Below are positions 18,312 through 61,896 of a stretch of 61,896 bases of DNA, one piece after another. The stretch comes from a virus. Made by a program: the position numbers and the translations under genes. The stretch is from positions 1 to 61,896 of the IMG/VR virus record IMGVR_UViG_3300030103_002748; one strand, 5' to 3'. Under the pieces are notes generated by a model. The model searched no databases and was not told where the DNA came from. It saw only the letters and a list, made by a program, of their open reading frames with translations. Each line of letters opens with the position of its first letter. The stretch's first letter is position 1.

Positions 18312-18784
18312 TAGTTTTTACCGTTGGAGCCGCCATAGAAGAATGCGGCTGCTGTGCCCAATATCCCGGATAGCTGCCCCAACACCAGACTAATAATGGT
18401 CTCGTCATTCTGATCGTGTGGCATCAAAGTGACGATCACAACAAATCCGCCATAAAGTAGGAGAGTAAGTATTGAAAACACTTTGGGAGTCCAGTCTGTA
18501 GAGAACTTAGTCCTAGCGTCCTTTCTATCCTCTACCTCAGTCTTAAAAGACTCTAGATTAATCTCCATTTCCCTTATCTTAGTCTTAAAGTCAGCGTCCG
18601 CCTGCTTTACCAGCACGGCCTTTTCTGGCTCTCTTTCGATAAGGTCTTCAATTTCATTAGCCGTGGCTGAGTCTGGAAGACCCAACTTTTTGGCAGCCAT
18701 CTTGACGGCCATCCCGGCCATAGGGCCGCCAGCAGCACTGGCTATTGTAGGAGCGAGGGATTTAAGTAACCCGCCTAACTTCAT
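18311..18784 (-). CDS. Holin-like membrane protein (3-TM GTA-holin type), copy B
   Basis: 157 residues, the same length as copy A and the same layout: Gly/Ala/Met-rich N-terminus (LAPTIASAAGGPMAGMAVKM), coiled-coil middle, hydrophobic segments near 103-120 (VFSILTLLLYGGFVVIVTL) and 130-150 (LVLGQLSGILGTAAAFFYGG). Diverged in sequence but with conserved order next to lysozyme and lipoprotein, so it is a duplicated lysis cassette rather than a chance similarity. Confidence 0.75.
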   Translation of the reverse strand: MKLGGLLKSLAPTIASAAGGPMAGMAVKMAAKKLGLPDSATANEIEDLIEREPEKAVLVKQADADFKTKIREMEINLESFKTEVEDRKDARTKFSTDWTPKVFSILTLLLYGGFVVIVTLMPHDQNDETIISLVLGQLSGILGTAAAFFYGGSNGKN

Positions 18785-18996
18785 TCGGTGTCGTTTTCTT
18801 CAGCAACTATGTCATCTATAGTATCGCATACATCTGGGACAACTACACCTGTTGTGGCAGATAAAGCACCGCGTCCAACAGCTCGGATGCCTTTGTAAAA
18901 TTGGGAACAATATAACTCTTTATTATCAATGACTTGCTGAACTGAAGTGCAACTGCTCAACAAAACAAACACCGACAATATCGCATATCTCATCAA
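18781..18996 (-). CDS. Small lipoprotein of lysis cassette, copy B
   Basis: 71 residues with lipobox VLLSSC (Cys16 lipidated). The mature part shares YC-S[12 protein letters not shown], [10 protein letters not shown] and IDDIV with copy A (1896-2132), including both non-lipid cysteines. Lies immediately upstream of holin B with a 4-base overlap. In cassette A the 301-residue gene separates the equivalent pair. Confidence 0.75.
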
Positions 18997-19409: not shown

Positions 19410-21857
19410 TTAACCTCCTCTACGGTTTTGAAGTCTGAGTAATTCTCTTTTTGCTTGCGCGTCTAACCTGGCTGCTGTCTGAGCCTCCTGACTAGCCAGT
19501 CTTTCATCAAACTGACGAGCCCTTTCTTGTATCTTTTGCTCTTCCAGGCCAAGCTTGGCTTGATCTAATGCGGCATCATTTTGTTCCGCCTGTGCTTTGA
19601 TTTGCAACTCTTGCTGTTTCAAGGCAATCAATGGATCAGGCCCTTGTTGCTCTTTCGGATTGGCCTGACCGGCAATGCCTATACTAAGCTGCCTCAAATT
19701 TTGCAGCTCCTGCGCGATAATCTGAGCAACGGCACTTTCTATCTCCAACATCTGGTCATCCGTTGGAGACTGCTGACCATTGGCTTGTAAAAACTGCACC
19801 ATAGCAATCTCTTCGGATTTCAATTGCACATGCTCTGTCACGTGTTTTTGAAGAGCCGTAAGAACCACCACGTTTTGTGCCGCTATAGGCGACGCACTAA
19901 ATAAAAGGTGAGCCATTATATGAGCATCATGGTTTTGACCATAAAACGCTTTCAACGGAACATTGTTCAAGACATCGATGTTTTCTTGAGCAGGGTCCTT
20001 CGGCATCGGCTCATCTGTGTCCGCCTCATTTAAAATCTTGTCTACATCCTTAACACCCAAAGCATCGTACATGCGACGATACGCTTCATGCAGGTTGTGA
20101 AGCTGTGGTGCTTGTGTGGCAAGCTGTAGCTGAGACTGAGCTAAGGCAATACGTTGCGCCTGTGAAAAAACATTTGGATTAGAAACAGGAATAACGTCTA
20201 CACGGTCGTCAAAATCTGACGCCATGACCTCTTGATCGCCTCCTTCAATAGAAAACGGATATTCTTGAGGCAAGGACTCATGCATAACGCGAGCCATAAG
20301 CTTGAATTCCAACCGCATGGCGTAGTGCAAACGTTTATGCACCGCGCTCATGACACGGCTGCCCTGCTCCAAGAGAGCGACTGTGGTGCCCACAGCGGCC
20401 TGTTGGTTACCCTCCCCTACCTTCATGTCAGTTATGGTGGCAAAACGCCTTCCCGCCTCTACCACGAAGCCTAATAGCTGAAAAAGAGTAGTATCGGGGC
20501 CTTTAAAGGGCAGCGGCAGCAAACTCTCTCGAATCGCGCCACCAGGAGCGTCTACATCCCTAAATTCACCAGGTTGGAGAGGTTCACTGTCTTCCGCTAT
20601 GCGTAAACCACGTGCTTTGAAGCCCGCAGGAAGGTTTGACAAGGTTCCTGCATCAATTAATTGCCTCAAAGCGGCTGTAGCCGTCCTAGAAAGACCCCCA
20701 ATGGTGTGAATTAGACCCAAACCGTAAAAACCGAGACCTGGGAGAAACTTATAATGCACAAAATACTGAATTTTTGCTTTATTCTCGTCATCCTCGGCAT
20801 AATTTCGTCGAATTGACAGAACTTGGCCGGTATCTTCGGCTATTGTGATAATGTAAGGTAGTTTTATGCCTGTTTCTTCGCCATTTTCGTCCTTGTCTTC
20901 AAAATCGGGAAGGTCTAATTCAGCATGAAATTCAAAGATGGTAGTGTCGTAGTCAATATTTCCAGGCTGTTGGCCCTGAATCTTGTCCATTTCTTCAGAA
21001 ATGTCGCTCTGATCCGGTTGTGTGGCCGAAACAGGGACATCTCTGTAAAAACCAGAGATTTGAAGCTTTCGAAGCTGGTTCAAAGGCATCGAAATCACGT
21101 TGGTTATGCAGGGACAGGTCTCCAAACTGCTGGTGTTGTACGGAACCACCAGGTTTTCGGCTGGAACAAAGCTACTAACGACCCTATCCAGTGCTGCATC
21201 AAAGTAAACTTTCTTAAATGTTGACCCTGCCAGTGGCAAATAGAACAACATTTGGTCAAACTCAGGAGTGTACTCTTCCATCACATTGGTGATGTAGTAA
21301 TTCATAAACTCCCGAACACGTTTGGCTTGTTTTTCTTTTTCTTTAGTAACACCTCCAACCACAGTAGTCCTGACAGGCCCTGACGGAGGCAGCATTTCGT
21401 TAAAGGCTTGAGCTTGAAACTGAGTGGCAGCTTCCGCTAAAAGAGGGTGAGTGACGCCAGTAGCGCCTCTGAAGGGCTCGGATCGCTCTTGGTAGTTGAA
21501 ACCCAACATTTCCAAACCTTTAGAATAGCCGTCTTCCCAGTCCTGACGAGAGGCTTTGTTAGAGTCGTACTCACTCAACAAATCATTGGCCACAGCGCCT
21601 AGTTGGCCCATGTCCATCTCTTCCGCTAGATTTCGGTTGAAGTCGCTCTCATCCACTGAATCCGATCCAGGGTCAAAGTCAACTATGACCCCACCGTCCT
21701 CAGTCTGTTCAATTTCAATATCCAAGCCCTCTCTTGGTGCATTGTTCAACGCACCCGGCAAAGCTATTTCTACTTGTTCCTCAACGGTTAGCTCTATCGG
21801 TGCATCGCCCGTGAGCCGCTCTACCATTGATGTTACGCCTTCAGTGCCGTTAGCCAT
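19410..21857 (-). CDS. Portal protein
   Basis: 815 residues, in the size range of podovirus portals. Recognisable elements include YNYQERSEPFRGATGVTHPL near the N-terminus (written here from GFNYQERSEPFRGATGV), GGLSRTATAALRQLIDAGTL, KVGEGNQQAAVGTTVALLEQ and a C-terminal Gln-rich coiled-coil barrel region (LKQQELQIKAQAEQNDAALD). It forms the dodecameric DNA gate at the head vertex. The gene lies between the RTX/peptidase-like gene and the small basic genes, two genes from large terminase. Confidence 0.85.
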   Translation of the reverse strand: MANGTEGVTSMVERLTGDAPIELTVEEQVEIALPGALNNAPREGLDIEIEQTEDGGVIVDFDPGSDSVDESDFNRNLAEEMDMGQLGAVANDLLSEYDSNKASRQDWEDGYSKGLEMLGFNYQERSEPFRGATGVTHPLLAEAATQFQAQAFNEMLPPSGPVRTTVVGGVTKEKEKQAKRVREFMNYYITNVMEEYTPEFDQMLFYLPLAGSTFKKVYFDAALDRVVSSFVPAENLVVPYNTSSLETCPCITNVISMPLNQLRKLQISGFYRDVPVSATQPDQSDISEEMDKIQGQQPGNIDYDTTIFEFHAELDLPDFEDKDENGEETGIKLPYIITIAEDTGQVLSIRRNYAEDDENKAKIQYFVHYKFLPGLGFYGLGLIHTIGGLSRTATAALRQLIDAGTLSNLPAGFKARGLRIAEDSEPLQPGEFRDVDAPGGAIRESLLPLPFKGPDTTLFQLLGFVVEAGRRFATITDMKVGEGNQQAAVGTTVALLEQGSRVMSAVHKRLHYAMRLEFKLMARVMHESLPQEYPFSIEGGDQEVMASDFDDRVDVIPVSNPNVFSQAQRIALAQSQLQLATQAPQLHNLHEAYRRMYDALGVKDVDKILNEADTDEPMPKDPAQENIDVLNNVPLKAFYGQNHDAHIMAHLLFSASPIAAQNVVVLTALQKHVTEHVQLKSEEIAMVQFLQANGQQSPTDDQMLEIESAVAQIIAQELQNLRQLSIGIAGQANPKEQQGPDPLIALKQQELQIKAQAEQNDAALDQAKLGLEEQKIQERARQFDERLASQEAQTAARLDAQAKRELLRLQNRRGG

Positions 21858-25039: not shown

Positions 25040-26500
25040 TTACCCGTAGTAACGAAAGGACCGTGAGCCGTGATCCTTATCCTCCCAATCATCTGTCGGG
25101 AGCTGTACAAAGTTACCCTGACGGTAACGCATCAACGCCTGCGTGGTACTGTCCACCAGATCGTCATGCTCACCATTAGGAAACGCCGCACACTCTTCGA
25201 CCAACTCATGTGCCCACTGGGTATCGGGGGCCCAAACCATTCCCGCTTCTAACAACGGGGCGATAGCATGCACTCTCGTGACCTTATCATTGCCCCGAGA
25301 CGGGGTAAAGTTTACCACAGGAATTCCCATATTACGTAGCTCGTGCGTCAACGGCATACCCGTGGCCTTCGCCTCAATAATCACCGTCTCCGGGTCCCAG
25401 TACTTCCACTGGTCATACGCTATGGTTTTTAGCTCGGGGAAGTCCCAACGGCCCTTCTGGCTGTCCAGGAGGATCAGATTGGGCTGAGAGCCCTCATCTG
25501 GGTAAAAAACGCCCCATGTCGTAATCGCACTGTAGTCCGCTGTCTCGCGCTTAGAAAAGGCCGTGTCATAGCTCTGTATTACAAAAGAAAGCTTCGGAAT
25601 CTTCTCAGCCTCCCACACATTCCACCACTCGCGCTTGAGAATGCTGTTATCGTCACCCGTGGGCTGCTGCTGGTACTGCGCGTTCCACTTACTCGGCGGA
25701 ATCGACGCCTTAACAGAAACCAAATCCTCCAACGACCAGTATTCGGGCCAAACAGGCTTGCCAGAGGGTAACTCCATAGGAAATTCAACAACTTCCCACT
25801 GATCAGCGTTCTCGTCCCTGGCCATCTGACGAACCAGTTGACCCGTCAAATCCTTCTCGGACCAACGGGTCATCACCAAAACTATCGATCCACCCGGCTG
25901 CAAACGCTGTCTGGGACCACCCGTGTACCAGTCCCAGGCGTCATCAAACCCCGCATTCGACATAGCAGTCTGCTCAGAATGGGGATCGTCGATAATACAT
26001 AAATCGGCACCGCGACCAGCCAGATTACTGCCAACACCAACAGCATAGTACATGCCGCCACGAGCCGTATCCCACCGACCACTGGCTTTAGAATCCGCAG
26101 CCAGCTTCGAGTCAGGAAATATGTCAAGATAATCCTCCCGCTCCAGCAAGTTCTTCACCTTACGACCAAAGCCTACCGCAAGCTCCGTGGTGTGCGTCGC
26201 CTGAATAATCTTCATCGCAGGATTCTTACCCACCATCCAGGCAGGAAACAGAAAACTCGCAAACTCACTCTTGGTATGACGCGGCGGCATATTGACTATC
26301 AACCGCTTCAACTCGCCCCGCGCTACCCGTTCAAGCTTCTCAGAAATAATTCGATGATGCTCACCGGCAATAAACTCCGGCCACATCGCTCGAACAAAGT
26401 CCAGGAAGTTAGTCTGACACCCCTCAATGCGCTCAAGCTGCGCTAATCGCAGCTCAAGTTTAAGCAGATGTTCGTCAGTTTCTTTAGCTAATTCAGTCAC
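25040..26500 (-). CDS. Terminase large subunit
   Basis: 486 residues. ATPase part: Walker A-like MPPRHTKS (71-78), Walker B LCIIDD (167-172), and coupling TRWSEKDL near 211. Nuclease part: [15 protein letters not shown] with Asp312 and Asp322, and HDDLVDS near 456 as metal ligands. The motor cuts concatemers and pumps DNA through the portal. The small subunit is not adjacent but lies about 5 kb away at 31437-32069. It starts 4 bases inside the upstream 91-residue gene. Confidence 0.93.
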
Positions 26501-32920: not shown

Positions 32921-33625
32921 TCAAATTTTGAGGTTATCGAGGGGGAGTTCGGACTTGTCGAAGTCTTCGACGCACTTGCGGTAGGCGTCCATAAAATGGT
33001 CGGACACTGAGTCGGTTACCTGCCAATCTTCTTTCTTGAAATCTTTGCTTGGATTGACGTGTCCCTTACCGGTGGCGTTATCGAAGTAGAGTTGGGTTTG
33101 CCCACCGTCGGGGCCGAAGAAGAATTTCGGCACTCGGGGGATGGCATCAGAGCCGCAGACTACGGAGAGTTGTGTTTTTAACCAGGGCATTTTGCCGTTG
33201 TAGACGGGTCGGAAGAATACGTTGGGTTTTCCTAGTGTCACGAGGTGGGCGTCTTTGAACTCGGAGCAGGACCAGGCGGAGAGTTCCGCCAGGGCCCCGC
33301 CCAAGCTGTGCCCACATATCAACAGCTTTTTGGCCGGGTCCAGGAGTTTTCTGATCTCCGTCCAAACTGAACGATGGGCCCTGACGAAACCTGCATGACA
33401 GAGTCTACCTTTATACGGTCGAGGTAGGCTTAAAACGTTGTACATCCAGTCCCTGACCTGCTGTGTGCCTCTGAATACGACGATATCGAGATGCGGGGTC
33501 CGGTGGACAAAAGCCGTGGTAGACGTTCTGTCACACTCTACTTTGGTGGCTCCGACGATGTTGTCGTTATAGGCATTTTCAGCGTAGATGCAAGCGGTGT
33601 CTAAATTGTCTTCGCTGAATGACAT
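32921..33625 (-). CDS. Class 3 lipase-like alpha/beta hydrolase, copy B
   Basis: 234 residues. GHSLGGALAE (Ser107), GSDAIPRVP (Asp160) and SDHFMDAY (His210) give a complete triad. YKGRLCHAGFVRAHRSVW and LGKPNVFFRP are shared with copy A at 2098-2868. It lacks the charged C-terminal extension of copy A. No signal peptide. It lies among early genes, not beside holin or lysozyme, so its timing and role may differ from copy A. Confidence 0.87.
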   Translation of the reverse strand: MSFSEDNLDTACIYAENAYNDNIVGATKVECDRTSTTAFVHRTPHLDIVVFRGTQQVRDWMYNVLSLPRPYKGRLCHAGFVRAHRSVWTEIRKLLDPAKKLLICGHSLGGALAELSAWSCSEFKDAHLVTLGKPNVFFRPVYNGKMPWLKTQLSVVCGSDAIPRVPKFFFGPDGGQTQLYFDNATGKGHVNPSKDFKKEDWQVTDSVSDHFMDAYRKCVEDFDKSELPLDNLKI

Positions 33626-40707: not shown

Positions 40708-41481
40708 TTAGAACGGAATGTCATCAGTATTGACGTCTGCCGACTCATCCTGATGCTTGACGTTGACCTCACCAGCCAGGATAGACGTGGCAAACGCCTT
40801 GGCTGACTGGTAGATGTTAGCGTCCTCTACGGGGCCGTTCAGGCTGATCTCCCAGCCGTGCCACGAGCCCTTCGAGTTTTCCTCAGACACCGTCTTGAGG
40901 GCATACACGTGCGAGAAACGCGGTGGTGTAAACATACCGTTCTTACCCTGCATTGTGCGGGACTGAACCATAGAGTTCCACTTGCGGGATTTCTTGAGCT
41001 GCGTGGACTTCATCGCAATCAACGCGGTTTCCATAGTGCCGTCTTTACCAATGATGACGACAAAATGCTGATGGGTCTCTTCAAGGTACGAGCCTTGGCC
41101 GTCAACCACATACTCGCGGTTATCCTCTGAGCTGCGCTCAGTCTTGGGCCGTTGGTCGTCTGGCGTGAAGATGTTGATAGGCGCTCCGGTGCCAGTGCCT
41201 CGGGGAGCCCACTCAATGTAACGGCGCTGGTAGACACAGGGCACCACACTGATGCCTTCTTTGCCTTTCCAGACCTGACCAGTCACGGTGTTGTAGATGT
41301 CGCCAGCTTTGGCGTCGTCCAGGTCATCAAGGATGGGGTCCTGACGGGACAACACCTTGAGGAAGGGCAGTGCCACATCTTCCTGACCTAGTTGGCCAAG
41401 GCCGATACCGGCATCTTCTTCAAACACAGACGCATCAAACGCCACGACGTTGCTTTCTTTCTTTTCTGCTACTTTACTCAT
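40708..41481 (-). CDS. Single-stranded DNA-binding protein-like
   Basis: 257 residues. The core pattern VALPFLKVLSRQDPILDD, VTGQVWKGKEGISVVPCVYQ, and RYIEWAPRGTG is found in many marine phage genomes next to primase. The chain ends in TDDIPF, the acidic tip characteristic of bacterial SSB proteins that recruits partners. Operon position between primase and the 191-residue gene supports a replication role. Confidence 0.7.
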   Translation of the reverse strand: MSKVAEKKESNVVAFDASVFEEDAGIGLGQLGQEDVALPFLKVLSRQDPILDDLDDAKAGDIYNTVTGQVWKGKEGISVVPCVYQRRYIEWAPRGTGTGAPINIFTPDDQRPKTERSSEDNREYVVDGQGSYLEETHQHFVVIIGKDGTMETALIAMKSTQLKKSRKWNSMVQSRTMQGKNGMFTPPRFSHVYALKTVSEENSKGSWHGWEISLNGPVEDANIYQSAKAFATSILAGEVNVKHQDESADVNTDDIPF

Positions 41482-42056
41482 TATCTCGTTCCTTTCTTGA
41501 TAGTTGCGCGTTGGCCCACGTATGCACCGAATAGGTCCATAGGAAATTCTTCACCGTTCTCAACACGCTCCTTGACAAAAGCCTTGAGTGTGCTGGGATG
41601 AACTTCTTCTTTCTGGGAGGCAGGGACACCGGCGTCATGCGCGACCTTGATAAAGGTCTCAGCCTTCTTGTCTTCACCGCGACCGAATACACAAGCGACG
41701 GTGTTCTTAATAATGTCGTCAAAGCCATTGGTTCTTAGCCAGCCAAAAGCCGCATCGCGGTTGTCTACCTTGATGTGCGCTCCATAGGTCGGCTTGAGTT
41801 CAATCTTGCTGCCGTCGTCCAGTTCGAACTTGGCCAGACCGATCTCATGCAACAGTGCCGGTAGGTCCTCGTCGGTCAGCTTGAGGAGCTTTTTCTTCTC
41901 CTCTTTGACACGATCTTCGAGACCAGACACCAATGTGGATTGTGCTTCGACAGCACGAGCCATCTCGGCAATAGTTTTCAAGCCTTCAGTGTTGATGCTG
42001 TGCAACTCGGAGGTCTCGGCTTGATCGGCCTCCATCTCAGCAAATAGATCATTCAT
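41481..42056 (-). CDS. Replication-operon coiled-coil protein, unknown
   Basis: 191 residues. The first 90 residues are acidic and coiled-coil (LVSGLEDRVKEEKKKLLKLT). The rest is globular with FELDDGSKIELKPTYGAHI and RDAAFGWLRTNGFDDIIKNT. Similar proteins accompany SSB-like genes in marine phages; no function is known. First gene of the leftward replication operon; its stop abuts the SSB start. Confidence 0.6.
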   Translation of the reverse strand: MNDLFAEMEADQAETSELHSINTEGLKTIAEMARAVEAQSTLVSGLEDRVKEEKKKLLKLTDEDLPALLHEIGLAKFELDDGSKIELKPTYGAHIKVDNRDAAFGWLRTNGFDDIIKNTVACVFGRGEDKKAETFIKVAHDAGVPASQKEEVHPSTLKAFVKERVENGEEFPMDLFGAYVGQRATIKKGTR

Positions 42057-42133: not shown

Positions 42134-43582
42134 ATGAATTACAAATTTAAAACAGAACCGTATCAACATCAGCACGACATCTGGGAAAAGTCGTGGAGGG
42201 CCGAATATTATGCCCTCTTTCTGGAGATGGGTACAGGCAAATCAAAGATCGCTATCGACACGATGGGGGCGCTGTACCAGGCCGGTGAAATAGACACCGC
42301 GCTTTTGATTGCCCCCAAAGGTGTATTTGACAACTGGGTCCGCAAAGAAGTTCCCACACACCTGCCGGATGACATTGAATGTCGCATCGTGCGTTGGCAG
42401 CCCAACTTTACGCAGAAATTCACAAACGAAATTAAAGATGTGGCGATACGCGGCGAATCTAAGGCGCTGCATATCCTGGTCATGAACATTGAAGCGTTGT
42501 CTACAAAGAAGGGAGCGCAGAGCGCGTACCGGTTTCTACAGCGCAATCCCAACAACTTTTGCCTGATAGATGAGTCCACGACCATTAAGAACCGTCAGGC
42601 CAGTCGCACGAAAAACGTCATGGCTTTGACGGGGGTGTCAAAATACCGGCGCATACTAACAGGCAGTCCGATCACCAAAAGTCCTATGGATTTATACAGC
42701 CAGTGTGACTTTTTGCACAGCGACGCTCTGGGTTTTAAAAGTTTTTACAGTTTTCAGGGTCGGTATGCGGTGATACAGCGCCGGTCTATGGGACATCGCA
42801 GCTTTCAACATATTGTTGGATACCGTAAGCTGGACGAGTTGACTCAAAAGTTAAACGGCTTTTCTACCCGAGTCCTAAAATGTGAGTGTCTGGACCTGCC
42901 TGACAAAGTGTACACACAGCGTGAAGTACCGCTGACCACAGAGCAGAAGAAAGTCTACAACCAAATGAAGGAAATGGCCCTAGCCCAGGTAGAATCCGGG
43001 GAGTTGGCCACCACTCAAAGTGTCCTGACCCAGCTAATGCGCTTGCAGCAGATAGCCTGCGGATCATTACGCACCGATGACGGTGAGATACAAGATATTA
43101 AAAACAACCGAATGACTGAGCTGTTGGCCGTGGTCGAAGAAGTGCCCGAAAAGGCCATAATATGGGCTACCTTTACACAGGACATTCTGAACATACAGGA
43201 GGCCCTGACCAAGGCATATGGTGAGGATTCTGTGGCAATTTACTACGGTGACACGCCCCAGGACGAACGCCAGGCCATTGTTGAGCGGTTCCAGGACCCG
43301 GACTCGCCACTGCGTTTCTTTGTGGGACAGCCCAGAACTGGGGGATACGGCATCACTCTGACGGCTGCCAACACGATGATCTACTACTCTAACAGCTATG
43401 ACCTGGAGATACGGTTGCAGTCTGAGGACCGGGCTCATCGGATTGGGCAGGACAGGTCGGTGACTTATGTAGACCTGGTATCGCCTGACACTATTGACGA
43501 AGTCATCTTACGAGCCCTGCGTAACAAGATAAACCTTGCCAGCACGGTGCTAGGAGAGGACCCCAAGGAATGGTTACGTTAG
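42134..43582 (+). CDS. SNF2-type DEAD-like DNA helicase/translocase
   Basis: 482 residues. Walker A LEMGTGKSK (about 31-38), motif II LIDESTTIKN (DEST in place of DEAH), motif III ILTGSPITKSPMDLY, and C-terminal motifs RTGGYGITLTAANTM and QSEDRAHRIGQDR. A double-strand DNA translocase or annealing helicase is expected, perhaps for recombination or replication restart. The only large plus-strand gene. Its stop codon overlaps the stop of the convergent gene at 43579 without a terminator between. Confidence 0.9.
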   Translation: MNYKFKTEPYQHQHDIWEKSWRAEYYALFLEMGTGKSKIAIDTMGALYQAGEIDTALLIAPKGVFDNWVRKEVPTHLPDDIECRIVRWQPNFTQKFTNEIKDVAIRGESKALHILVMNIEALSTKKGAQSAYRFLQRNPNNFCLIDESTTIKNRQASRTKNVMALTGVSKYRRILTGSPITKSPMDLYSQCDFLHSDALGFKSFYSFQGRYAVIQRRSMGHRSFQHIVGYRKLDELTQKLNGFSTRVLKCECLDLPDKVYTQREVPLTTEQKKVYNQMKEMALAQVESGELATTQSVLTQLMRLQQIACGSLRTDDGEIQDIKNNRMTELLAVVEEVPEKAIIWATFTQDILNIQEALTKAYGEDSVAIYYGDTPQDERQAIVERFQDPDSPLRFFVGQPRTGGYGITLTAANTMIYYSNSYDLEIRLQSEDRAHRIGQDRSVTYVDLVSPDTIDEVILRALRNKINLASTVLGEDPKEWLR

Positions 43583-53126: not shown

Positions 53127-53425
53127 GATATTGTCACCGTAACAGAGCCCACACTACCCGTGGCGGATGATCCACGTAAATTTGGCTCATTTGCTAAACT
53201 TATTTTAAGAAACCCATTTTTCTCGTATACCGCCCCTGTTTCAAGGCCCTGATCGTCCCCAGACTGTAGGTTAGTCAGAGTTAGATTCGTGTGCCGTGCA
53301 TCGCCAGGGTTCTGTAATTGCTGCAAAAACAACAAAAACGCCCTCTGCACCTCTGCTTGATGGCTCTGTTGGTAGGTGTCTGGCGCATTAGGAAAGAATA
53401 ACCTTGTTAAGCTACGCGAAGACAC
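53123..53425 (-). CDS. Small protein ending in a VGSVTV repeat unit
   Basis: 100 residues. SLTRLFFPNAPDTYQQSHQA and QRAFLLFLQQLQNP in the first half. The C-terminus SSATGSVGSVTVTIS matches one unit of the repeat protein at 7794-8699 and the end of the protein at 10072-10377. Lies next to the nozzle-like gene; likely a small tail component. Confidence 0.55.
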   Translation of the reverse strand: MSSRSLTRLFFPNAPDTYQQSHQAEVQRAFLLFLQQLQNPGDARHTNLTLTNLQSGDDQGLETGAVYEKNGFLKISLANEPNLRGSSATGSVGSVTVTIS

Positions 53426-55350
53426 TATCTTCTGCCATCCTGTCTAGCATCCACACGAGCGGTGCCCAAACGCCATTGCATATCTATGCTATCGGACTGA
53501 ACTTTCAGAGCGAAAGACCGCCCTCGCAATCGAACGAACGCTTGCTCGGTAAACTGCTCTACTGGTGTCGTGGCACTTTGCGTCACCGCAGAATCTTTGG
53601 TTTGCAGATACTGACCTCCAGGAAAGTTTCTCGCCTGAAGCGTAAAATCTGCGCTGGGACCGTTGGTTACGGACCCATCAAAGGTAATATCCGGTATTAG
53701 CCTGCTGAGAAAAACAAAATTGTTGCCCTCACCAATACTGAGCTGGCTGCTTTCTATAAAGCTCGTCATCGGCGTCGGTGGGTTGGTGCTGCCGTCATTC
53801 AGACCGTTTTCATGATCATACAGGTAACCATCTGTGCTTGCCGCTAATGGAAAGTTGTTTACCCCACGGTCTAGCCACACAGTGCGAGGCAGAGTACCAA
53901 AGTACCAAACCTTTTCCTCATAATTGTAGATAACGTATCGATCTATTTCTGTGGAGCTGGCAGACGGATAAAACCACCAAACCTCTGAGTTGCTGCTGTT
54001 AAGGGCCGCTGTGACCTTTTCCGACTGAGAGCTATTGAAGTCATTAAAAACATAACTTCTTACCGTGCAAGGCAGCTTTTGTACCTGCCCGTTGTACACA
54101 TAAAAGTCCTCGAAACCCATCCAGAAAACGGCATCGTCCACAGCTTTTGCTGCCATCGGTCCCATAATTGTAGTGTTTTCTGATATTTGGGACACACCAA
54201 AGGTAAAAGGTGGGCCCAAGAACTGCAAACTGTGTACAGATACGTCTGTGAACACCAGTACCTGGCTTTTGGTCTCCACCGCAGTGATGATCTCAGACCC
54301 AGAGCTAATACGAAGCTCCCCCGCCGTGTTTGTGGCTTCTGCTTTCCAGGTGGTTAAAGACTCCTGACTGCTAAATCTAATCAACAAGGGGTCCTGGGTG
54401 CCAATGCTAGTCTCTCCGTCGCAACCAAAAACAAGCACGTGACGGTCTCTATCTGAGACTAAGACCTGTTTGGCTATGGTGGGGGTTTCAGCGTCAGCAT
54501 TCGTTAAAGACGCTAGAGCGGTAACACGATCTGTGCCAAGAGCGTCTGCACTGGTATCCCAGAAGAAGATACCACCGTCACGGACGCAGGATAGAAGGTC
54601 TTCACCAAAATTATCTTGCGTCCAAATACGCAGGGTGTTGACCACCGTCAATGCGGAGGCAGTGCCCCAAGTTCCGCCACCCCAGGTTCCTGCACCCCAT
54701 CCTGTGCCGGTAACTACGTTGGTCAAGCCAGTGTTTATTTGATATTTACCAACGACGCTAGAGCCCCCGTTACCTGTGTCTGAGCTGTTAGCGGTCACCG
54801 GAGTGGCGCTTATTTGACCGTCTACAGTGATGCTTTTAATGGTGGTGGAGGCAGCACGAGCGGATATCTTGTAACTGTCAACATTAACAACTTCAGTAAT
54901 TTGGTATTCCTGATTCAGCACGTTTGCCGTGATGTTACCGCCAAGAGAAGCAGCACCACTAAAAGTCACAAAGTCGTTCTGTGCTGCTCCATGATTCGTG
55001 TCCGTGACCGTTATAACTGACGATCCGTTGGTCGCGGAAAAGGTGACGTCACCCGCAGCCGTGGTGGAGCGAATGGGTGTTACATCGTAAAACTCTCCAC
55101 CCTGGTTTATGTAAAGCTTCAGACTTGTGCCAACTCCAGTGAGCTTGGTGCCAGACAACGTAACCCAGGTATGCAGGGACCTAGCTGTGCCCAGAAAACT
55201 GTTGTCCCCGTTCTTTTGCCAACCGCCTATTTTTTCGGGTAAGCCAAAACGAAAACGCACCTTATCAGAGTTAAACCATCCGCCTTCATTGGTATATGAG
55301 GTAGTTTCTCGGTTTACGCCAGGTCTAAATTGTAATTTTGTAAGTGGCAT
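53425..55350 (-). CDS. Tail nozzle/stabilisation-like protein (P22 gp10-type)
   Basis: 641 residues. The start PLTKLQFRPGVNRETTSYTN and GGWFNSDKVRFRFGLPEKIG is typical of podovirus tail proteins equivalent to P22 gp10 or SU10 nozzle. Beta-rich throughout, with repeated Trp/Gly strands (GWGAGTWGGGTWG; FWMGFEDFYVYNG). Expected to form the hexameric tail tube tip below the adaptors. Confidence 0.7.
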   Translation of the reverse strand: MPLTKLQFRPGVNRETTSYTNEGGWFNSDKVRFRFGLPEKIGGWQKNGDNSFLGTARSLHTWVTLSGTKLTGVGTSLKLYINQGGEFYDVTPIRSTTAAGDVTFSATNGSSVITVTDTNHGAAQNDFVTFSGAASLGGNITANVLNQEYQITEVVNVDSYKISARAASTTIKSITVDGQISATPVTANSSDTGNGGSSVVGKYQINTGLTNVVTGTGWGAGTWGGGTWGTASALTVVNTLRIWTQDNFGEDLLSCVRDGGIFFWDTSADALGTDRVTALASLTNADAETPTIAKQVLVSDRDRHVLVFGCDGETSIGTQDPLLIRFSSQESLTTWKAEATNTAGELRISSGSEIITAVETKSQVLVFTDVSVHSLQFLGPPFTFGVSQISENTTIMGPMAAKAVDDAVFWMGFEDFYVYNGQVQKLPCTVRSYVFNDFNSSQSEKVTAALNSSNSEVWWFYPSASSTEIDRYVIYNYEEKVWYFGTLPRTVWLDRGVNNFPLAASTDGYLYDHENGLNDGSTNPPTPMTSFIESSQLSIGEGNNFVFLSRLIPDITFDGSVTNGPSADFTLQARNFPGGQYLQTKDSAVTQSATTPVEQFTEQAFVRLRGRSFALKVQSDSIDMQWRLGTARVDARQDGRR

Positions 55351-55352: not shown

Positions 55353-55856
55353 TTACTCTTCAGTATTTAAGGGATTGTCTAAAATGCGTTGTATTCTTTC
55401 CTCAAGATCGTCGCGCATTTCACGCAATTCATTATCTATGTCTCTTAAACTGTCGTTGACTCGTTCTTCCAAAGCATACACATCATCTCGAAGTTCTCTC
55501 GTAGCTAAAACGACAGAGTCATCTGTGTCTCTGGCAACACGCTCTACAATGTCTATGTCGGACTGTAGACGATCCATATTGTTCATTAACTCCACAATAT
55601 CTTGATCTATTGCTCTTTTCACCGCCTCTATTAACACATCGGCAGCGTCTAGTTTGGTGTCTAACACAGCAAGCTCTTCATCATATGAGCTGAAATCAGG
55701 CGATACATACGATGTTATCGCCTCTTCCGCCGTAAGAAGTCTTTGATACAGCTCAAAACCACCCCATAACGCAGCACCAATACTACCCAAAAACGGTATA
55801 ACAAGCAGTAACTTGCCACCTGAAACCTTTACGTCTCCAAATTCTACCTCTGCCAC
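55353..55856 (-). CDS. Membrane-anchored coiled-coil protein
   Basis: 167 residues. One hydrophobic segment near residues 14-36 (KLLLVIPFLGSIGAALWGGF), then a long acidic coiled coil to the end (DDVYALEERVNDSLRDIDNE and neighbours). Similar in shape to the 75-residue protein at 2865-3092 but longer. It starts inside the NIDO-like gene by 13 bases. A membrane-contacting virion or lysis role is possible. Confidence 0.6.
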   Translation of the reverse strand: MAEVEFGDVKVSGGKLLLVIPFLGSIGAALWGGFELYQRLLTAEEAITSYVSPDFSSYDEELAVLDTKLDAADVLIEAVKRAIDQDIVELMNNMDRLQSDIDIVERVARDTDDSVVLATRELRDDVYALEERVNDSLRDIDNELREMRDDLEERIQRILDNPLNTEE

Positions 55857-57733
55857 TGTAACTCCACTAAATCGTTGTATCCATCTGTTCCGGTTATACG
55901 CAGCAATCCTCTTGGGTCTACCGTAGGAGCATTGTCTGGGTACATCTGCGTACTTTCATAAAACTCCCTATCGGTTAAATTCACGTTTTGGTATTGATTA
56001 AACGCCGGATTGTTTGAAATCAAAAACACCGCTAGGCTCTGGTCAGTAAAACCTCCAGTGTCTCCAATATCTTCCAACTCATTTTCTAAGCTCTGTTCAA
56101 GGTCCTGTTGACTCATCGTCTGTATTTGGGCCTCGGCGCGTTGGACGGTGCGTTGCTCTTGTTGACTTGGGGGAGCTACGTCAAACCGACTAAAATCCGG
56201 TAGTTGTGCGGACAGAAATTGTCCTATGGACTGCCCTGTGGCTATTGCATCGTTGAAATCCTGCTCAAACTGCATTTGACTCGGAGGAGCTAAGTCTTCT
56301 TGCGTAAGTCCGTTAGACTCCTGTTGATCGGCCTGAGTAGTTACTGTTTGCGTTATTTGCTGTTGCATACCTGCTACAGCTTGATCCGGGCCTGTATTCT
56401 CAAATATGTTCATATTCTGTGGTTGAGAGCCAAATGACTGCGATTGTCCCGACAAACTTAAAGCGATACCCACGACATCTACTGCGGGCTTCACTGCTGC
56501 GCTAACTCTTTCAGCAGCGGGCTCTGCTCTGGTCTCAGCGGCTACCTCAACCGAGGCAGCTTTGGTTTGCGCTTCCACAGCTTGCACCTCTCGAACCACT
56601 GGCTCTGCTCTAATAACCACTCGCTCTGGGGCGGGCTCTGGTCTTGGCTCGCGTGTAACCTGGACTACTTCTGCAACGGCTTCTACAACTTCAACCGCTC
56701 TAGCCTCTCGGACTTCTTCGACCTGTGTTGGTTCACCGGTAATCTCTGGTGCTTGTTGCTGCTGTTGTTGGTCTTGTCTAACTGGCTCTCCCGTGGGTGC
56801 CCTACCCATCACCTGGGGGCCACCAAACATCTGCTGCTGTGGTGCATCTTGGTAGACCTGTGGTTGCGATAACTGTGTCAGAACCCGTGGTCTGCCCATA
56901 GCGTCAGGCTGATCAAGATGCATAAAATCATCCGCCGAATCACCAAAAACTGTATCTGTAGCTTGTTCTGCATAGCTGGGTGGAGCGGACGCTGCCTCTC
57001 CACCTCCGCCTTGTTGCTGGTTTAAGGTGCTTGCAGACATTATTAAACTAGCTACGCCGTTGTTTAATCCAAAAGTTGTACTGCCGCCATAGTTCTGAAC
57101 ATCATTGGTGGTGAAACCATTCATTTCCCATTCTTGTGTCCAAGAGCCACCGTATCCATCACCATTTGGAAAATTAGGGCCACCATACCAACCAACAAAT
57201 GCCTTGTGGTGAAAGCTCACATTGACATCTTGGTACTCAAATTTAAACCCACCTGTACGATCTAGCGTTAATCCGAAGGTATTTTCGTTTGTGGTGGCAT
57301 ATTCTCTAACCTTGTTCCATAAAAAGCTGGTTGAGTCGGCGTTAGTCTTATAAAAATACCCTGCGTTAGCGTCATTACTAGTATCATCAAGATCAGTCCA
57401 CAATGGCGCAAGCATGTAAGAAAAGCTTCCCAAACCATAATCTCGCGGCATATAAGTCGGCATTCCAGTGGCGTGAGTGTAGCCATCACAGCAATACCCA
57501 TACAACGGAGCAGTCTGTTTACCAACTCCGGTGGTTGGGTTATACATCAACACAAAACCATTGGTACTCATCCAGGCATGAGTAAAAATCTGATCCAACC
57601 ACGGAAACGTATGACCCATTTCTACTGAAACGGCCTTATCATCTACTCCGCTCATGACCTGGGTCATGCCCGTAGGGTTGAGATCCGCAAAAGAGAGTGA
57701 GGGTAAAAGGCAGAGTAAAGTAAAACGCTTCAC
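55844..57733 (-). CDS. Exported NIDO-like protein with low-complexity tail
   Basis: 629 residues from a GTG at 57733, chosen because AGGAGG (57739-57744) lies 5 bases upstream and the resulting start MKRFTLLCLLPSLSFA is a signal peptide. Residues about 20-240 resemble a nidogen-type beta domain (STNGFVLMYNP, LAPLWTDLDDTSNDANAGYF, TFGLTLDRTGGFKFEYQDVN). A Gln/Glu/Val/Ala-rich region follows, then a small C-terminal domain. Function unknown. An exported phage protein may act at the cell surface. Confidence 0.6.
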   Translation of the reverse strand: MKRFTLLCLLPSLSFADLNPTGMTQVMSGVDDKAVSVEMGHTFPWLDQIFTHAWMSTNGFVLMYNPTTGVGKQTAPLYGYCCDGYTHATGMPTYMPRDYGLGSFSYMLAPLWTDLDDTSNDANAGYFYKTNADSTSFLWNKVREYATTNENTFGLTLDRTGGFKFEYQDVNVSFHHKAFVGWYGGPNFPNGDGYGGSWTQEWEMNGFTTNDVQNYGGSTTFGLNNGVASLIMSASTLNQQQGGGGEAASAPPSYAEQATDTVFGDSADDFMHLDQPDAMGRPRVLTQLSQPQVYQDAPQQQMFGGPQVMGRAPTGEPVRQDQQQQQQAPEITGEPTQVEEVREARAVEVVEAVAEVVQVTREPRPEPAPERVVIRAEPVVREVQAVEAQTKAASVEVAAETRAEPAAERVSAAVKPAVDVVGIALSLSGQSQSFGSQPQNMNIFENTGPDQAVAGMQQQITQTVTTQADQQESNGLTQEDLAPPSQMQFEQDFNDAIATGQSIGQFLSAQLPDFSRFDVAPPSQQEQRTVQRAEAQIQTMSQQDLEQSLENELEDIGDTGGFTDQSLAVFLISNNPAFNQYQNVNLTDREFYESTQMYPDNAPTVDPRGLLRITGTDGYNDLVELQWQR

Positions 57734-58560
57734 CTCAACCTCCTGTCTGGCTCCGGTATCTTGTCTGGGTTTGCGTCCCACAACACCTTTGCCTCATCGC
57801 CTATCTTGCCCTCGTAAGGACATGGTGTTCCTGCACTCATCATGCTTGACCAAACACGGTAGTCTTGGCACATGAGACTTACCGCTGCGACGCGCATACC
57901 CATGTCGTACAGGGTCTTTCCCAATTTTATACGTTCGCAGTTTTGATCACGGACAGAACGCCCAGTGGATAAACCTAGTATCTGTGTTTGCACCGCACCA
58001 GATATGCCCGTAGTGCAAAGGTCTTGGCTATAACTACTACCAATACTGGGTGCGATAGCACTAGGTGGCGGTGACTCTAGCTTTTGGGTAACACGCTGTG
58101 TTGAGTCGCTAATGCTCTGACTATTGCTAACATTGTTGTTAGTGTTCATTGCGGTAATGTCACTAACACTGTTGCTTGTCGTAAAGCTCGTGCTGTTAGA
58201 CGTAGTATTACTGGTGTTGGTATTTACGTTGGTAGCACTGCTCGTAGATACCGTGTTGTTAATATTGGTGTTGGTGTTATTGCTTGTGCTGGTATTTATA
58301 TTTTCAATAAGACCGTCATAGTTCATCGAGTTGACGTTAGTGTTCAAGCTCGTTGAATCTGTAGTGGTGTTGATAGTGCTGTTATTCGTATTGGTGTTAG
58401 TTGACGCACCCGTATAAGTTGTATTGTTCGTATTATTGTTATTATTGGTATTGTTAGACGAACTTGTACTTGTGGCAGTCGTAGTTATCTCAGTCTGCGT
58501 TTGTGCAAACAAAGGAATAGCAAAAAAACTACATATCGCTAAAACCAATAGACGTTTCAT
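57730..58560 (-). CDS. Exported Asn/Thr/Ser-rich protein with Cys domain
   Basis: 276 residues. Signal peptide MKRLLVLAICSFFAIPLFAQ; residues 22-150 are almost only Asn, Thr, Ser with few others. A C-terminal domain has paired cysteines (QDLCTTGISG, DQNCERIKLG, SLMCQDYRVW, GTPCPYEG), suggesting disulfides outside the cytoplasm. It overlaps the NIDO-like gene through GTGA. Unknown function; likely secreted or periplasmic. Confidence 0.65.
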   Translation of the reverse strand: MKRLLVLAICSFFAIPLFAQTQTEITTTATSTSSSNNTNNNNNTNNTTYTGASTNTNTNNSTINTTTDSTSLNTNVNSMNYDGLIENINTSTSNNTNTNINNTVSTSSATNVNTNTSNTTSNSTSFTTSNSVSDITAMNTNNNVSNSQSISDSTQRVTQKLESPPPSAIAPSIGSSYSQDLCTTGISGAVQTQILGLSTGRSVRDQNCERIKLGKTLYDMGMRVAAVSLMCQDYRVWSSMMSAGTPCPYEGKIGDEAKVLWDANPDKIPEPDRRLR

Positions 58561-58576: not shown

Positions 58577-58837
58577 CTATTCAGACTCTTCTCTTGGGTC
58601 TACCCAACCCTCTACTGCCGTGAACGTGCCGTCACTCGCACAGGTGTACTTGCACCCGTACCAGTCGGTTGGCTCGCTAACTCCAGTGATAAGAGTGGCG
58701 TTGCCGCTGTTGAGGTCACCAATGATAAACTCAGCAGGATCGCCCACAGTAATTGTGTCGCTTCCCATCGTGACTGACTTGTCATCAGCAAAGAGGTATC
58801 TGGATGTGTTCGTTGCATTGTCTACGATTGTCTTCAT
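58577..58837 (-). CDS. 86-residue array-associated protein, copy 2
   Basis: Identical to copy 1 (3092-3352) except for four residues (ITGVSEPTD versus IEGVTEPED, and VEG versus VED). It follows the two-propeller gene, just as copy 1 follows a one-propeller gene. Structural or fibre-associated role inferred from context. Confidence 0.7.
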   Translation of the reverse strand: MKTIVDNATNTSRYLFADDKSVTMGSDTITVGDPAEFIIGDLNSGNATLITGVSEPTDWYGCKYTCASDGTFTAVEGWVDPREESE

Positions 58838-58840
58838 GTC

Positions 58841-61432
58841 TTACCCTTTCAGTAGAAGTGTCGTGTTTGCTATTGCCTTGCCAGCCGTTACGCTGGAAGA
58901 CGTTGTGGAAAGTGTGCCATCGTCTTGGACGTAGTAGGTGCTGCCGATTGTGAAGTTAGGCACACCGCTGGATAACGTGCCTACGATGCCTGTGCCATAG
59001 TTTGAATTACCATTATCTTTGAACGCTATGACAATTTTATTGTTGTCAGTATCTTTAGTTATAGCAATCTCTCCGCCACTGGTAGAGGTAGAGTTAAAGA
59101 CAGCAGCATCACCAAACGTAATGGTGTCGCCATCAACCGTCCCTATCTTGGTTTTTCCTTTATTTGAATCATCGGTGTCGCTGTAACCTATGATAATTTT
59201 ATTTGTAGTGGAGTCATAAAACGCTGGTGTACCGTGAAAACCCACATTGGTGCTATTCCAAGTTACCTCTGTTCCAACGCTTATTGATGTGCCGCTGACT
59301 GTACCTATGATTGCTTTCCCAATGTTGGAGTTATCCGCATCGCTAAAAAATATTACCGATTTGTTTGCATTAGCGTCATAAGCCACAGCAGTTCTAAAGG
59401 CATTTGCTGCAACTCCCGTGGTGAATGATCCAACACTCATGCTTGTGCCTGATATTGTTACAACACAAGCGTCCCCACGATTACTGTTGGAATTATTTGC
59501 AAAGAACACAACGTGCTTTTGAGCGGTAGAATCGTAGGCGATTGCTATATATATTGCCGTATCGCTAGAAAGTGCAGATGCTCCACCAAAGCTGATACTT
59601 GTTCCTGACACTGTACCCACATTAGCAGTAAGTACATCAGAATTACCTCCATCGCTGTAAACAAACAAGGTCTTTGATGCGTTAGTATCGTATGATGCCT
59701 CAAGATACGCAGATGAAGCAGACTCTAACACTACCTCTGTACCGAAAGAGATACTTGTTCCTGACACAGTTCCCACTCTGGCCGTGCCGTATGAACTGTT
59801 CCCTACATCTCTGTATCCAATGACTACTTTCCCCGCAGAAGCATCAAAAACTGCGGTCACATAGTCTGTGCTGGCACTATTAAATTCTACAGGACTACCA
59901 TAACTAATCGACGTACCAGACACAGTGCCTACGATAGCTTTCCCTTTGTTTGAGTCACCGTAATCTGCGTACGCTATTACAATCTTGTCGTTTGCTGTGT
60001 CGTAAACAATTGCCGGATATCTCGAATTACCCGTATTATAAACCGCCTCACTTCCGTAACTCGCTGTCGTTATTGGTGACAACAACGACCCGTTAGTAAT
60101 CACCCCGCCCTCGACAACCACTTCGCCTGATGCAGAGTTGTTGATAGCTTGGTTGGTTATGCCTACGAAGTCAGAAGAGTTTGTGGATGCGCCAGCTAAC
60201 TGAAGCACATATGCTTTGCCTCGATTATTTGTAGAATCACTTAGAGCAATAACTGTTCTTCCTGCATTGGTGTCAAAAGCAGAACCGCCAAAATTATTGT
60301 TGTAGTTCGTAATTGCTACAGGAGTTGCATAGGATATGCTGTTACCCGCAGTAGGTGTCCCTACCACATAATAGCCATAGTCACTATTATTTTGATCTCG
60401 ATATTGAATTACAACTTTGTTTGCTACGGAGTCAAAAACTATTGAGTGAACGTCTACAATATTACTAGAAAATACGACACCAGTACCAAAAGATATGCTG
60501 GTTCCAGACACTTCACCTACAACTGCTACACCCCGTCTACTATTGTCGTAATCCTGATAAGCGACAACTATTTTGTTAAGATTGCTGTCAAATGTTGCTA
60601 CAATGTCTTCAGCGGTATCGCTTGCAGGAGAGAAAGCCTCACCTGACCCAAAGCTGATGCTTGAGCCGGACACTGTTCCGACTTTTGCCCGCCCTCTTGT
60701 GTTGTTATCATTATAAACTACGACAAATTTATCGTTCGTAGTATCGTAAAAAACAGCCATTGGGTCTGAAACAGAATTACTTTCAAAAACCTCTTCTGGA
60801 TTGGTTCTAGTGACCGAAGTGCCACTAACCGTTAGAAGTCTTGCTGCGCCTCTGTTGCTGTTCCCGCCATCTGCATAAATTATCATATGCTTGGCAGCAT
60901 CAGGACTGTAGGCAACATTAACGTACAATGATTGATTGCCCTCGACCTCTAAGGCAGAGCCGAAAGAAATACTGGTTCCTGACACAGTACCAACGATTGC
61001 TTTTGCTGGGCCGTTACCCTCATCATAAGACTGATAAGCGATTAATACCTTGTCCTCACCTGTATCATAGGAAGCGTCTACATGATTAGTGCCTGAACTC
61101 TGAAAAACCACCGCTGTGCCAAACGAGATTGAGTTACCTGATACCGTACCAACGCGAGCGGTTCCATAATTACTATTACCGTTATCCCTATATGCAACTA
61201 TTACTTTGTTGCTGTCAGGATCAAAAACAACCGCCGGGTACTCAGTTTGATTTGATGCTCCATATGTAACAGCACTGCCGATGTTTTCGGAATGTGCAAC
61301 CTCAGCGACCGCTTTAACAGTACCGTCACTCTGCAAGATCACGGTTTGTCCTGTAGCCAGATTACCACTGGCCGTGGCCGTTATGACTTTTGCGCCGCCA
61401 CCTGCTGGCAGTAAATCGCTTAGATTGCTCAT
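58841..61432 (-). CDS. DUF2190-like scaffold protein with two inserted seven-repeat propellers (array 2, position 2)
   Basis: 863 residues. Scaffold N-part (MSNLSDLLPAGGGAKVITAT), seven ~52-residue repeats, scaffold middle (FVGITNQAINNSASGEVVVE), a second set of seven repeats, then scaffold end (FTIGSTYYVQDDGTLSTTSS). Each set alone fits a seven-bladed propeller. The second block enters at about scaffold residue 75-80, a site not used in array 1. The scaffold ends are nearly those of the array 1 gene at 3356-4810. Confidence 0.75.
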   Translation of the reverse strand: MSNLSDLLPAGGGAKVITATASGNLATGQTVILQSDGTVKAVAEVAHSENIGSAVTYGASNQTEYPAVVFDPDSNKVIVAYRDNGNSNYGTARVGTVSGNSISFGTAVVFQSSGTNHVDASYDTGEDKVLIAYQSYDEGNGPAKAIVGTVSGTSISFGSALEVEGNQSLYVNVAYSPDAAKHMIIYADGGNSNRGAARLLTVSGTSVTRTNPEEVFESNSVSDPMAVFYDTTNDKFVVVYNDNNTRGRAKVGTVSGSSISFGSGEAFSPASDTAEDIVATFDSNLNKIVVAYQDYDNSRRGVAVVGEVSGTSISFGTGVVFSSNIVDVHSIVFDSVANKVVIQYRDQNNSDYGYYVVGTPTAGNSISYATPVAITNYNNNFGGSAFDTNAGRTVIALSDSTNNRGKAYVLQLAGASTNSSDFVGITNQAINNSASGEVVVEGGVITNGSLLSPITTASYGSEAVYNTGNSRYPAIVYDTANDKIVIAYADYGDSNKGKAIVGTVSGTSISYGSPVEFNSASTDYVTAVFDASAGKVVIGYRDVGNSSYGTARVGTVSGTSISFGTEVVLESASSAYLEASYDTNASKTLFVYSDGGNSDVLTANVGTVSGTSISFGGASALSSDTAIYIAIAYDSTAQKHVVFFANNSNSNRGDACVVTISGTSMSVGSFTTGVAANAFRTAVAYDANANKSVIFFSDADNSNIGKAIIGTVSGTSISVGTEVTWNSTNVGFHGTPAFYDSTTNKIIIGYSDTDDSNKGKTKIGTVDGDTITFGDAAVFNSTSTSGGEIAITKDTDNNKIVIAFKDNGNSNYGTGIVGTLSSGVPNFTIGSTYYVQDDGTLSTTSSSVTAGKAIANTTLLLKG
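58960..60060 (-). repeat. Seven ~156-bp coding repeats (propeller 4)
   Basis: Second block of the 863-residue protein, at the distinct downstream scaffold site. Confidence 0.85.
60190..61280 (-). repeat. Seven ~156-bp coding repeats (propeller 3)
   Basis: First block of the 863-residue protein, inserted after the scaffold N-part at the same site as propellers 1 and 2. Confidence 0.85.
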
Positions 61433-61791
61433 GTGCTGTAATCCAGATTGATGCTTGTGGCTGACATTGCTTTACCAGCGGTCACTGAAGAAGATGCGGT
61501 GCTAAGTGTGCCGTCATCTTGGACGTAGTAGGTCGCTCCTGGCGTTAGACTGCTCAGACCATTAGCTGCAATCCCGCCCTTCATAGTAACCTTGCCGCTT
61601 GCTGCGTTGGATATGGCTGCGTCTGCTATGCCTAAAAACCTACTGACGTTAGAGTTCGCTGAGGTTATTTTTTTAACTTTTCCATTGGTTTCTAAACTTA
61701 CCGTGTCGCCTTGCGCTATCGCCCCATCAGCAGTAAAACTTAGCTGCTTACTGGCCGCACCCGCTGGTAAAAGATCGCTTAGATTTGTCAT
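61429..61791 (-). CDS. Propeller-free DUF2190-like scaffold protein (array 2, position 3)
   Basis: 120 residues, MTNLSDLLPAGAASKQLSFT to SINLDYST. The ends match the propeller-bearing gene at 4807-6285; the middle (LETNGKVKKITSANSNVSRF) matches the propeller-free gene at 6282-6647. It looks like the position 3 gene without its propeller, or a hybrid of the two. Overlaps the next genes by ATGA. Confidence 0.65.
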   Translation of the reverse strand: MTNLSDLLPAGAASKQLSFTADGAIAQGDTVSLETNGKVKKITSANSNVSRFLGIADAAISNAASGKVTMKGGIAANGLSSLTPGATYYVQDDGTLSTASSSVTAGKAMSATSINLDYST

Positions 61792-61896
61792 GTCAAATCC
61801 ATCATGTTAATTGTTGTGGCAGTGACAGCCTGGCCTATCTTCACCGCTGGGCTTGTGCTGGTAGTAGAGACACTGCCATCGCTTTGGACGTAATAG
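61788..61896 (-). CDS. Partial propeller-scaffold gene, cut by window edge (array 2, position 4)
   Basis: Only the last 35 codons are present (YYVQSDGSVSTTSTSPAVKI to TTINMMDLT). They match the end of the protein at 6282-6647 almost exactly. The stop overlaps the next start by ATGA. Whether a propeller is inserted upstream cannot be seen. Confidence 0.75.
   Translation of the reverse strand, partial: YYVQSDGSVSTTSTSPAVKIGQAVTATTINMMDLT

Follow-up and report, generated by a model that had tools for sequence, protein, structure and literature searches.

The window analysed here, the 'linear' contig of IMG/VR virus record IMGVR_UViG_3300030103_002748 (exactly 61896 bases), carries near each of its ends an array of three paralogous genes, classes I, II and III, followed by a gene for a protein of 86 residues. 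The seven-bladed propellers encoded inside the array genes have almost certainly been exchanged as whole cassettes between genes and between phages, judging from sequence comparisons with related records (labelled below by L- and G-numbers, such as L014 and G021). The three array genes appear to encode paralogous adhesins, in which each of the two loops of a platform can hold a seven-bladed propeller, a member of another propeller family, or no insert. The best explanation as a whole combines paralogous adhesins, cassette movement, a composite of one locus and a position at the tail-fibre tip, and it can be held with moderate confidence.

Both arrays lie on the - strand, and their genes are recognised by the C-terminal motifs INMMD (class I), LDYST (class II) and LLLKG (class III). 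In array 1, the class I gene (6282-6647) encodes a bare scaffold of 121 residues, ending in INMMDFA, of which residues 1-118 are covered by the scaffold hidden Markov model (HMM) and in which no blades are detected. The class II gene (4807-6285; 492 residues, ending in NLDYST) and the class III gene (3356-4810; 484 residues, ending in TLLLKG) both have the architecture N-B7-MC, where N, M and C are scaffold segments, and their site-1 propellers lie at about 5047-6159 and at 3569-4684, respectively. The 86-residue gene is located at 3092-3352. In array 2, the contig ends inside the class I gene, leaving only its 3' end (61788-61896, the last ~35 residues, translation ..YYVQSDGSVSTTSTSPAVKIGQAVTATTINMMDL). 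The class II gene of this array (61429-61791) encodes a bare scaffold of 120 residues with the NLDYST motif (scaffold HMM 1-119, no blades), the class III gene (58841-61432) encodes a protein of 863 residues with the TLLLKG motif and the HMM architecture N-B7-M-B7-C, and the 86-residue gene is found at 58577-58837. The two propellers of the 863-residue protein are inserted in separate loops of a single scaffold, at site 1 (60173-61306) and site 2 (58952-60100), and are separated by the middle (M) scaffold segment of 24 residues (60101-60172), a homology anchor. In classes I, II and III, the blade HMM counts 0, 7 and 7 blades in array 1, and in array 2, where class I is cut, 0 in class II and 7+7 in class III.

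The 86-residue proteins of the two arrays are 95% identical and their scaffold segments are identical up to 97%. At the DNA level, 3093-3454 is 84% identical to 58578-58939, and 61730-61896 is 92.8% identical to 6224-6390. The likeness of the two arrays is not due to chance, because the 86-residue proteins agree at 95% and the DNA at 84%. The original prediction, made from the letters of the window, had described two colinear arrays with the same gene order and with 1,1,0 (array 1) and 2,0,unknown (array 2) propellers, counted from class III to class I. The coordinates and the order were confirmed, as were the propeller numbers by the blade HMM and AlphaFold2.

The scaffold is a domain of 120 residues with two insertion loops. 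The AlphaFold2 model of the 863-residue protein (predicted local distance difference test, pLDDT, 85.5; predicted template modelling score, pTM, 0.52) contains two all-β propellers. The first of these resembles solved seven-bladed propellers, with YncE at a Z score of 33.6 and others at 30-34, and numerous further propellers match it too, including the seven-bladed lectins BP39L and PLL/PHL (Z 29-32). A PDB sequence search with the 492-residue protein gave no match at E values up to 1, and the likeness to lectins is one of fold only. A Foldseek search with the whole 863-residue model was dominated by multi-propeller proteins (such as WD40 proteins and DDB1) and was uninformative about function. 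The lectin-like propeller fold, and this fold only, suggests that the propellers may bind sugars, in this case glycans of the host surface; a role of the propellers in virion binding is plausible. Seven blades were detected by the blade HMM in 188 of 220 propeller inserts. Two blades of the same propeller resemble each other slightly more than do same-position blades of different propellers, which suggests some homogenisation inside the propellers.

About 40 related arrays were compared, in which the scaffold pieces were delimited with segment HMMs (N, M and C) and the insert lengths were taken from relatives having all three segments. The lengths are quantised, falling into narrow classes at both sites. 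Inserts at site 1 are mostly about 375 residues long, and the site is sometimes empty or filled with about 755 residues; site 2 is empty or holds about 120, about 265-285 or about 375 residues. The insert of 265-285 residues belongs to a different propeller-like repeat family with ~40-residue blades (FNTDGTKMFVVG..EYTLSTGFDVSTASF), which replaces the seven-bladed 52-residue type at site 2 in L010, L050, L076, L135 (where a weak SGL match is found), L203, L211 and others. In L190, L196, L175 and L146, the site-1 inserts of about 735-767 residues have double the usual length and consist of two tandem propellers.

The order I-II-III-86 is constant among the arrays, which display at least 10 occupancy patterns. 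The numbers of propellers in genes I, II and III are 1,1,2 in L014, 1,2,2 in L015 and L043, 1,2,1 in L178, 1,0,1 in L089, 0,1,1 in L125 and 1,1,1 in L018 and others; in the window they are 0,1,1 (array 1) and ?,0,2 (array 2). When the contents of site 1 and site 2 are written in this order (P, propeller), class I genes are P/0 in 32 cases, 0/0 in two and P/other in one. Class II genes are P/0 (25), P/P (5), P/265-285 (5), 0/0 (2), P/123 (1) and PP/0 (1), and class III genes are P/0 (18), P/P (20) and P/265-285 (6). At or near the class I position, bare scaffolds with a C-terminal extension of ~260-275 residues are found in L042 (2353-3531), L077 (1376-2494) and L066 (5098-6210), and the extensions in L042 and L077 match the Pfam family Gly_rich_2.

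Propellers residing in different scaffold classes can be nearly identical. The class III propeller of L077 and the class I propeller of L088 share 97% of their nucleotides and 98% of their fourfold sites (n=206), while their flanks are 60-74% identical; the corresponding values for the class III propeller of L014 and the class I propeller of L152 are 94%, 93% (n=187) and 56-61%. The LLLKG propeller of array 1 is 91% identical to the same class I propeller of L152 in amino acid sequence and 87% in nucleotides, with flanks at 55-67%, and it shares 95% of its amino acids with the propeller found in a 1395-residue fibre-like protein of L046. The site-1 propeller of the 863-residue protein has 75% amino acid identity to the class I propeller of L014 and 38-43% to the other class III site-1 propellers compared. 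Its site-2 propeller is 91% identical in amino acids and 87% in nucleotides to that at site 2 of L042, the L042 site-1 propeller reaching just 39%. Propellers also resemble each other across sites, as the site-2 propeller of L052 is 69% identical to site-1 propellers, those of the window included.

The reverse situation is equally seen, with scaffolds 88-98% identical carrying propellers that are ~45% identical and have saturated fourfold sites. In the comparison of the 863-residue gene with L130, the N, M and C segments are 93-94% identical in nucleotides and the propellers 45-48%, with 22-31% at the propeller fourfold sites. The M segment of this gene agrees at 94-97% in DNA with certain other class III genes, from which the propellers differ so much that their identity is about 45-50%. 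Sliding DNA identity changes sharply at the borders between propeller and scaffold. The presence of near-identical propellers in different scaffold classes, together with breakpoints at the borders, argues for cassette exchange and not just for gain and loss.

Trees of 118 scaffolds and 138 propellers were used to compare the number of label changes with that obtained for shuffled labels. The class label changes three times in the scaffold tree, or six times without the class-defining C segment, against a shuffled mean of about 55. In the propeller tree it changes 49 times (shuffled mean 61, range 53-67), and the site label changes 13 times versus 23 when shuffled. Scaffolds therefore keep their position while propellers move. 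What speaks against unrestricted movement is that 49 changes fall below the shuffled range, so that some class signal is retained and some propellers must stay with their scaffold class. The original prediction had proposed that whole seven-blade units are added to or removed from fixed scaffold sites. Among the related arrays, such units do occupy and leave fixed sites, but each scaffold has two of them, site 2 accepts another family as well, and exchange of propellers is a main process too; constant co-evolution of scaffold and propeller phylogenies, the comparison of which had been suggested, was not found.

The array proteins quite probably sit at the tip of the tail fibre, a placement drawn from gene fusions and gene neighbourhood. 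In relatives, the scaffold with its propeller forms the C-terminal part of long proteins that have tail-fibre PHROG matches (L028, L038, L054), these matches being N-terminal in L028 and L054, and it occupies the same position in the 1395-residue protein of L046. A tail-fibre-like protein of 377 residues is encoded upstream of array 1 (6648-7781, - strand; phrog_31104; phrog_972, tail fibre proximal subunit). Its residues 143-283 are 85% identical over 141 residues to the N-terminal part of the fusion in L189, and the fusions in L195 and L200 share segments of 80-86% with it. The fibre-terminal unit is thus seen in relatives, and the array proteins of the window itself are free-standing. The array lies beside the fibre-like gene, with roughly 7 kb separating it from the gene of the major head protein. 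The 86-residue protein is 38% identical to the N-terminal 81 residues of the tail assembly chaperone of Lentibacter phage vB_LenP_ICBM2, whose gene also adjoins, and follows, a propeller gene. By this resemblance, the 86-residue protein is a probable assembly partner or chaperone-associated domain. The platform itself may be a trimer.

Two observations weigh against the tail-fibre tip. The 86-residue protein has no match to a chaperone domain (no PF16778), and the scaffold folds like a capsid decoration protein, which would place the propellers on the head. It is conceivable, though rather unlikely, that the array genes encode cement proteins that decorate the head and present propellers across the capsid, in the manner of T4 Hoc or of the head fibre of phi29. 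The AlphaFold2 model of the bare 121-residue protein of array 1 (pLDDT 80) is a small, mostly-β domain resembling a β-tulip, and the structures most similar to it are proteins that stabilise or decorate capsids: chain 8qsy_JJ of HFTV1 (Z 12.0), XM1 (10.4), Pam3 (9.8), Adjutor (9.6), T1 (9.0), TW1 (7.5), phi29 gp8.5 (7.0), lambda gpD (6.3) and Sf11. MoeA, the one known non-viral β-tulip (PMC7602432), is among the matches and is weaker than the decoration proteins. The Pfam family Phage_cement_2 (PF09956) scores 23.3 bits on the same protein, with a best E value of 9e-5, and 21.4 bits on the 120-residue protein of array 2 (E 3.4e-4), both below the cut-off of 24 bits. The free-standing bare forms, too, resemble plain decoration proteins. 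However, the unit of scaffold and propeller ends tail-fibre proteins in relatives, the array genes adjoin a fibre-like gene and not the major capsid gene (13715-14620), the 86-residue partner is related to tail assembly chaperones, and the fold also matches phi29 gp12, a tail appendage (Z 7.6). A tail-fibre-tip adhesin is favoured because relatives fuse the unit to tail-fibre proteins; these fusions moved capsid decoration, the first reading, to second place.

The original prediction implicitly placed the two arrays in one genome. They are more likely two alleles of one locus. On the evidence of gene order and copy number, the arrays are very likely two versions of this locus that come from different co-occurring phages and were brought together on one contig, which is most likely a composite running once round a circular map, with alternative versions of one variable locus at its ends. 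The gene order in relatives is fibre gene, I, II, III, 86, accessory or lysis genes, then a homologue of the gene at 53428; in L014, L040, L042 and L050 it is array-86-75aa-lipase-78-301-157-141-53428. In the window, this interval from the fibre gene to the 53428 gene occurs twice, once per contig end. At the left end, array 1 leads to a lysis/accessory set (57-3092, - strand) encoding a 75-residue protein, a lipase, a lipoprotein-like protein of 78 residues, a protein of 301 residues, a phrog_1544 protein and a protein of 141 residues, and then to the start of a second 53428 copy, of which 16 codons are present (1-49, - strand; MAVRKLQFKSGVNRES); this copy differs from the intact one and is of the MAVRKLQFK.. 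type as in L014 and L040. At the right end, the INMMD tail and the rest of array 2 lead to an accessory module (55353-58560) encoding an Asn/Thr-rich secreted-type protein of 276 residues and proteins of 645 and 167 residues, a module found after the 86-residue gene in some relatives only (L038, L041, L043-L045, L054). The module is followed by the intact 53428 gene (53425-55350, - strand; phrog_3287), which encodes a virion structural protein of 641 residues, starts with MPLTKLQFRPGVNRETTSY and is of the MPLTKLQFR.. type.

Among the records searched, the 86-residue gene occurs once in each of the 34 others that hold it, a few of which are near-duplicates of one another, and twice in the window. 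The phrog_1544 protein is likewise encoded once in all nine other records that have it, beside the portal gene in G021, G046 and G047 and near the array in G001, G005, G006 and G013. The window encodes it at both alternative positions, the second copy lying with an endolysin and a 71-residue protein among the core lysis-type genes beside the portal gene (17871-18996, - strand). Two esterase/lipase genes are also present (2098-2868 and 32921-33625), both of phrog_21992. The two lipases, the phrog_1544 protein at both positions, the second 53428 start and the 86-residue gene, otherwise of single copy, point to a composite contig. The DNA of both ends closely resembles that of array-bearing relatives, and the core has little or no such identity. 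Between the two contig ends, no exact stretch of 55 bases is shared.

Some caution is required with the composite. Mosaicism is frequent here, and therefore the step in identity near 7.8 kb is by itself no proof of an assembly join; moreover, all the records compared are linear fragments. One real genome with a duplicated locus, whose copies later gained or lost propellers, would agree with the presence of both arrays on one assembled contig, with genes that are intact except at the contig ends and with scaffold segments so similar between the arrays. Such a genome is nonetheless improbable. The duplication would need to include both lysis sets, both lipases and the extra 53428 start, two copies of the 86-residue gene are found in no other record searched, and with respect to the fibre gene and the 53428 gene both arrays occupy one and the same place on the map. 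On both sides, the contig breaks off inside the duplicated interval, which is the outcome expected if the assembly had gone around a circle.

The aligned genes show directly how the proteins are built, that insert lengths are quantised, and that propellers were exchanged with breakpoints at the cassette borders; a recombination pathway may be inferred in addition. Homologous recombination between conserved stretches, namely the platform segments N, M and C and the adjoining 86-residue gene, would move whole propellers from one paralog or phage to another and would add them to, or remove them from, the tail-fibre proteins that end in the scaffold and propeller. The high variability at a single locus could also be explained by programmed variation within one phage, with a diversity-generating retroelement, an invertase or a site-specific recombinase switching the cassettes. 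This is very improbable, as no reverse transcriptase or recombinase was found among the genes scanned, in a scan that was not exhaustive, and the variation consists of whole-domain replacement at homologous flanks. Inverted repeats, considered as recombination sites, were found near the arrays only as short, imperfect pairs. Vertical descent without exchange, in which propellers would diverge faster than scaffolds under positive selection, is in keeping with the many orthologous pairs whose propellers are the more divergent part, but it is already refuted, unless those records are misassembled, by propeller fourfold sites that are saturated where those of the adjoining scaffold segments in the same gene pairs are mostly 58-100% identical and, in the reverse cases, 93-98% identical on diverged scaffolds.

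The remainder of the window indicates a tailed phage, with genes for terL (25040-26500), portal (19410-21857) and major head proteins, a DNA polymerase, a primase and helicases. One helicase gene (42134-43582) is on the + strand, and the - strand carries almost all the remaining main genes. A protein of 166 residues with a GroES-like Cpn10 domain toward its C-terminus (E 4.8e-8), possibly a phage co-chaperonin, is encoded upstream of the head genes (16754-17254). Two adjoining genes at 40708-42056 are related to gp34 and gp33 of cyanophage Pam3 (E 1.6e-61 and 3.4e-31). A near-identity DNA search of named phages gave no match to the window, and the named phage relatives are distant. The clues to the host are thin, consisting of the relative that infects Lentibacter and, from a scan of bacterial genomes, one short contig of a Maricaulis metagenome-assembled genome, which is insufficient for naming Maricaulis as the host.

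A more general system may be suggested only tentatively, in which each phage has three two-slot platforms, possibly assembled as a I-II-III heterotrimer, that draw plug-in propellers from a shared marine gene pool. If this is true, recombination would generate combinatorial receptor specificity and leave the rest of the virion unchanged. With two slots, three carrier paralogs, many natural recombinants and breakpoints readable within tens of bases, the system makes it possible to study directly how binding specificity depends on the propeller and at what rate such parts are moved at sea. It also cautions that where a metagenomic virus contig seems to have a duplication at its two ends, these copies may represent one variable locus from two strains.

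The β-tulip decoration proteins (HFTV1 8qsy_JJ, XM1, Pam3, TW1, lambda gpD and the base of phi29 gp8.5; PMC7602432, PMC12494034) have the same predicted fold, a small β domain with an N-terminal arm. Unlike them, the scaffold described here hosts propellers in two loops, occurs as three paralogs in a row by fibre genes and is fused to fibres in relatives. Decoration genes are commonly, though not strictly, found beside the major capsid gene, and the array is not. T4 Hoc and its kin (PMC10385173) likewise present variable binding domains on a conserved part that attaches to the virion; in Hoc, however, immunoglobulin-like domains are strung at one end, whereas here the propeller lies inside an internal loop and is swapped as a cassette. 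The lectins PLL/PHL and BP39L, as well as YncE, share the propeller fold (Z 29-34), and the PDB search with the 492-residue protein gave no sequence match to them. Phage vB_LenP_ICBM2 has a propeller region that is 31% identical and a chaperone whose N-terminus resembles the 86-residue protein, but no I-II-III array was seen in it, and its chaperones carry PF16778, unlike the 86-residue protein. Nothing direct was found in the literature on propellers on decoration proteins or on hypervariable marine fibre loci.

The tips of phage tail fibres are mosaic, with a conserved stem or platform, an exchangeable receptor-binding part and a small tfa-like chaperone gene downstream, and exchange takes place at conserved flanks. 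In the arrays, by contrast, it is a seven-bladed propeller within the protein that is exchanged, each protein has two slots and three paralogs serve as carriers. Phage adhesins are already known to exchange domains, and the unit exchanged here is unusually clean, an intact propeller in an internal loop.

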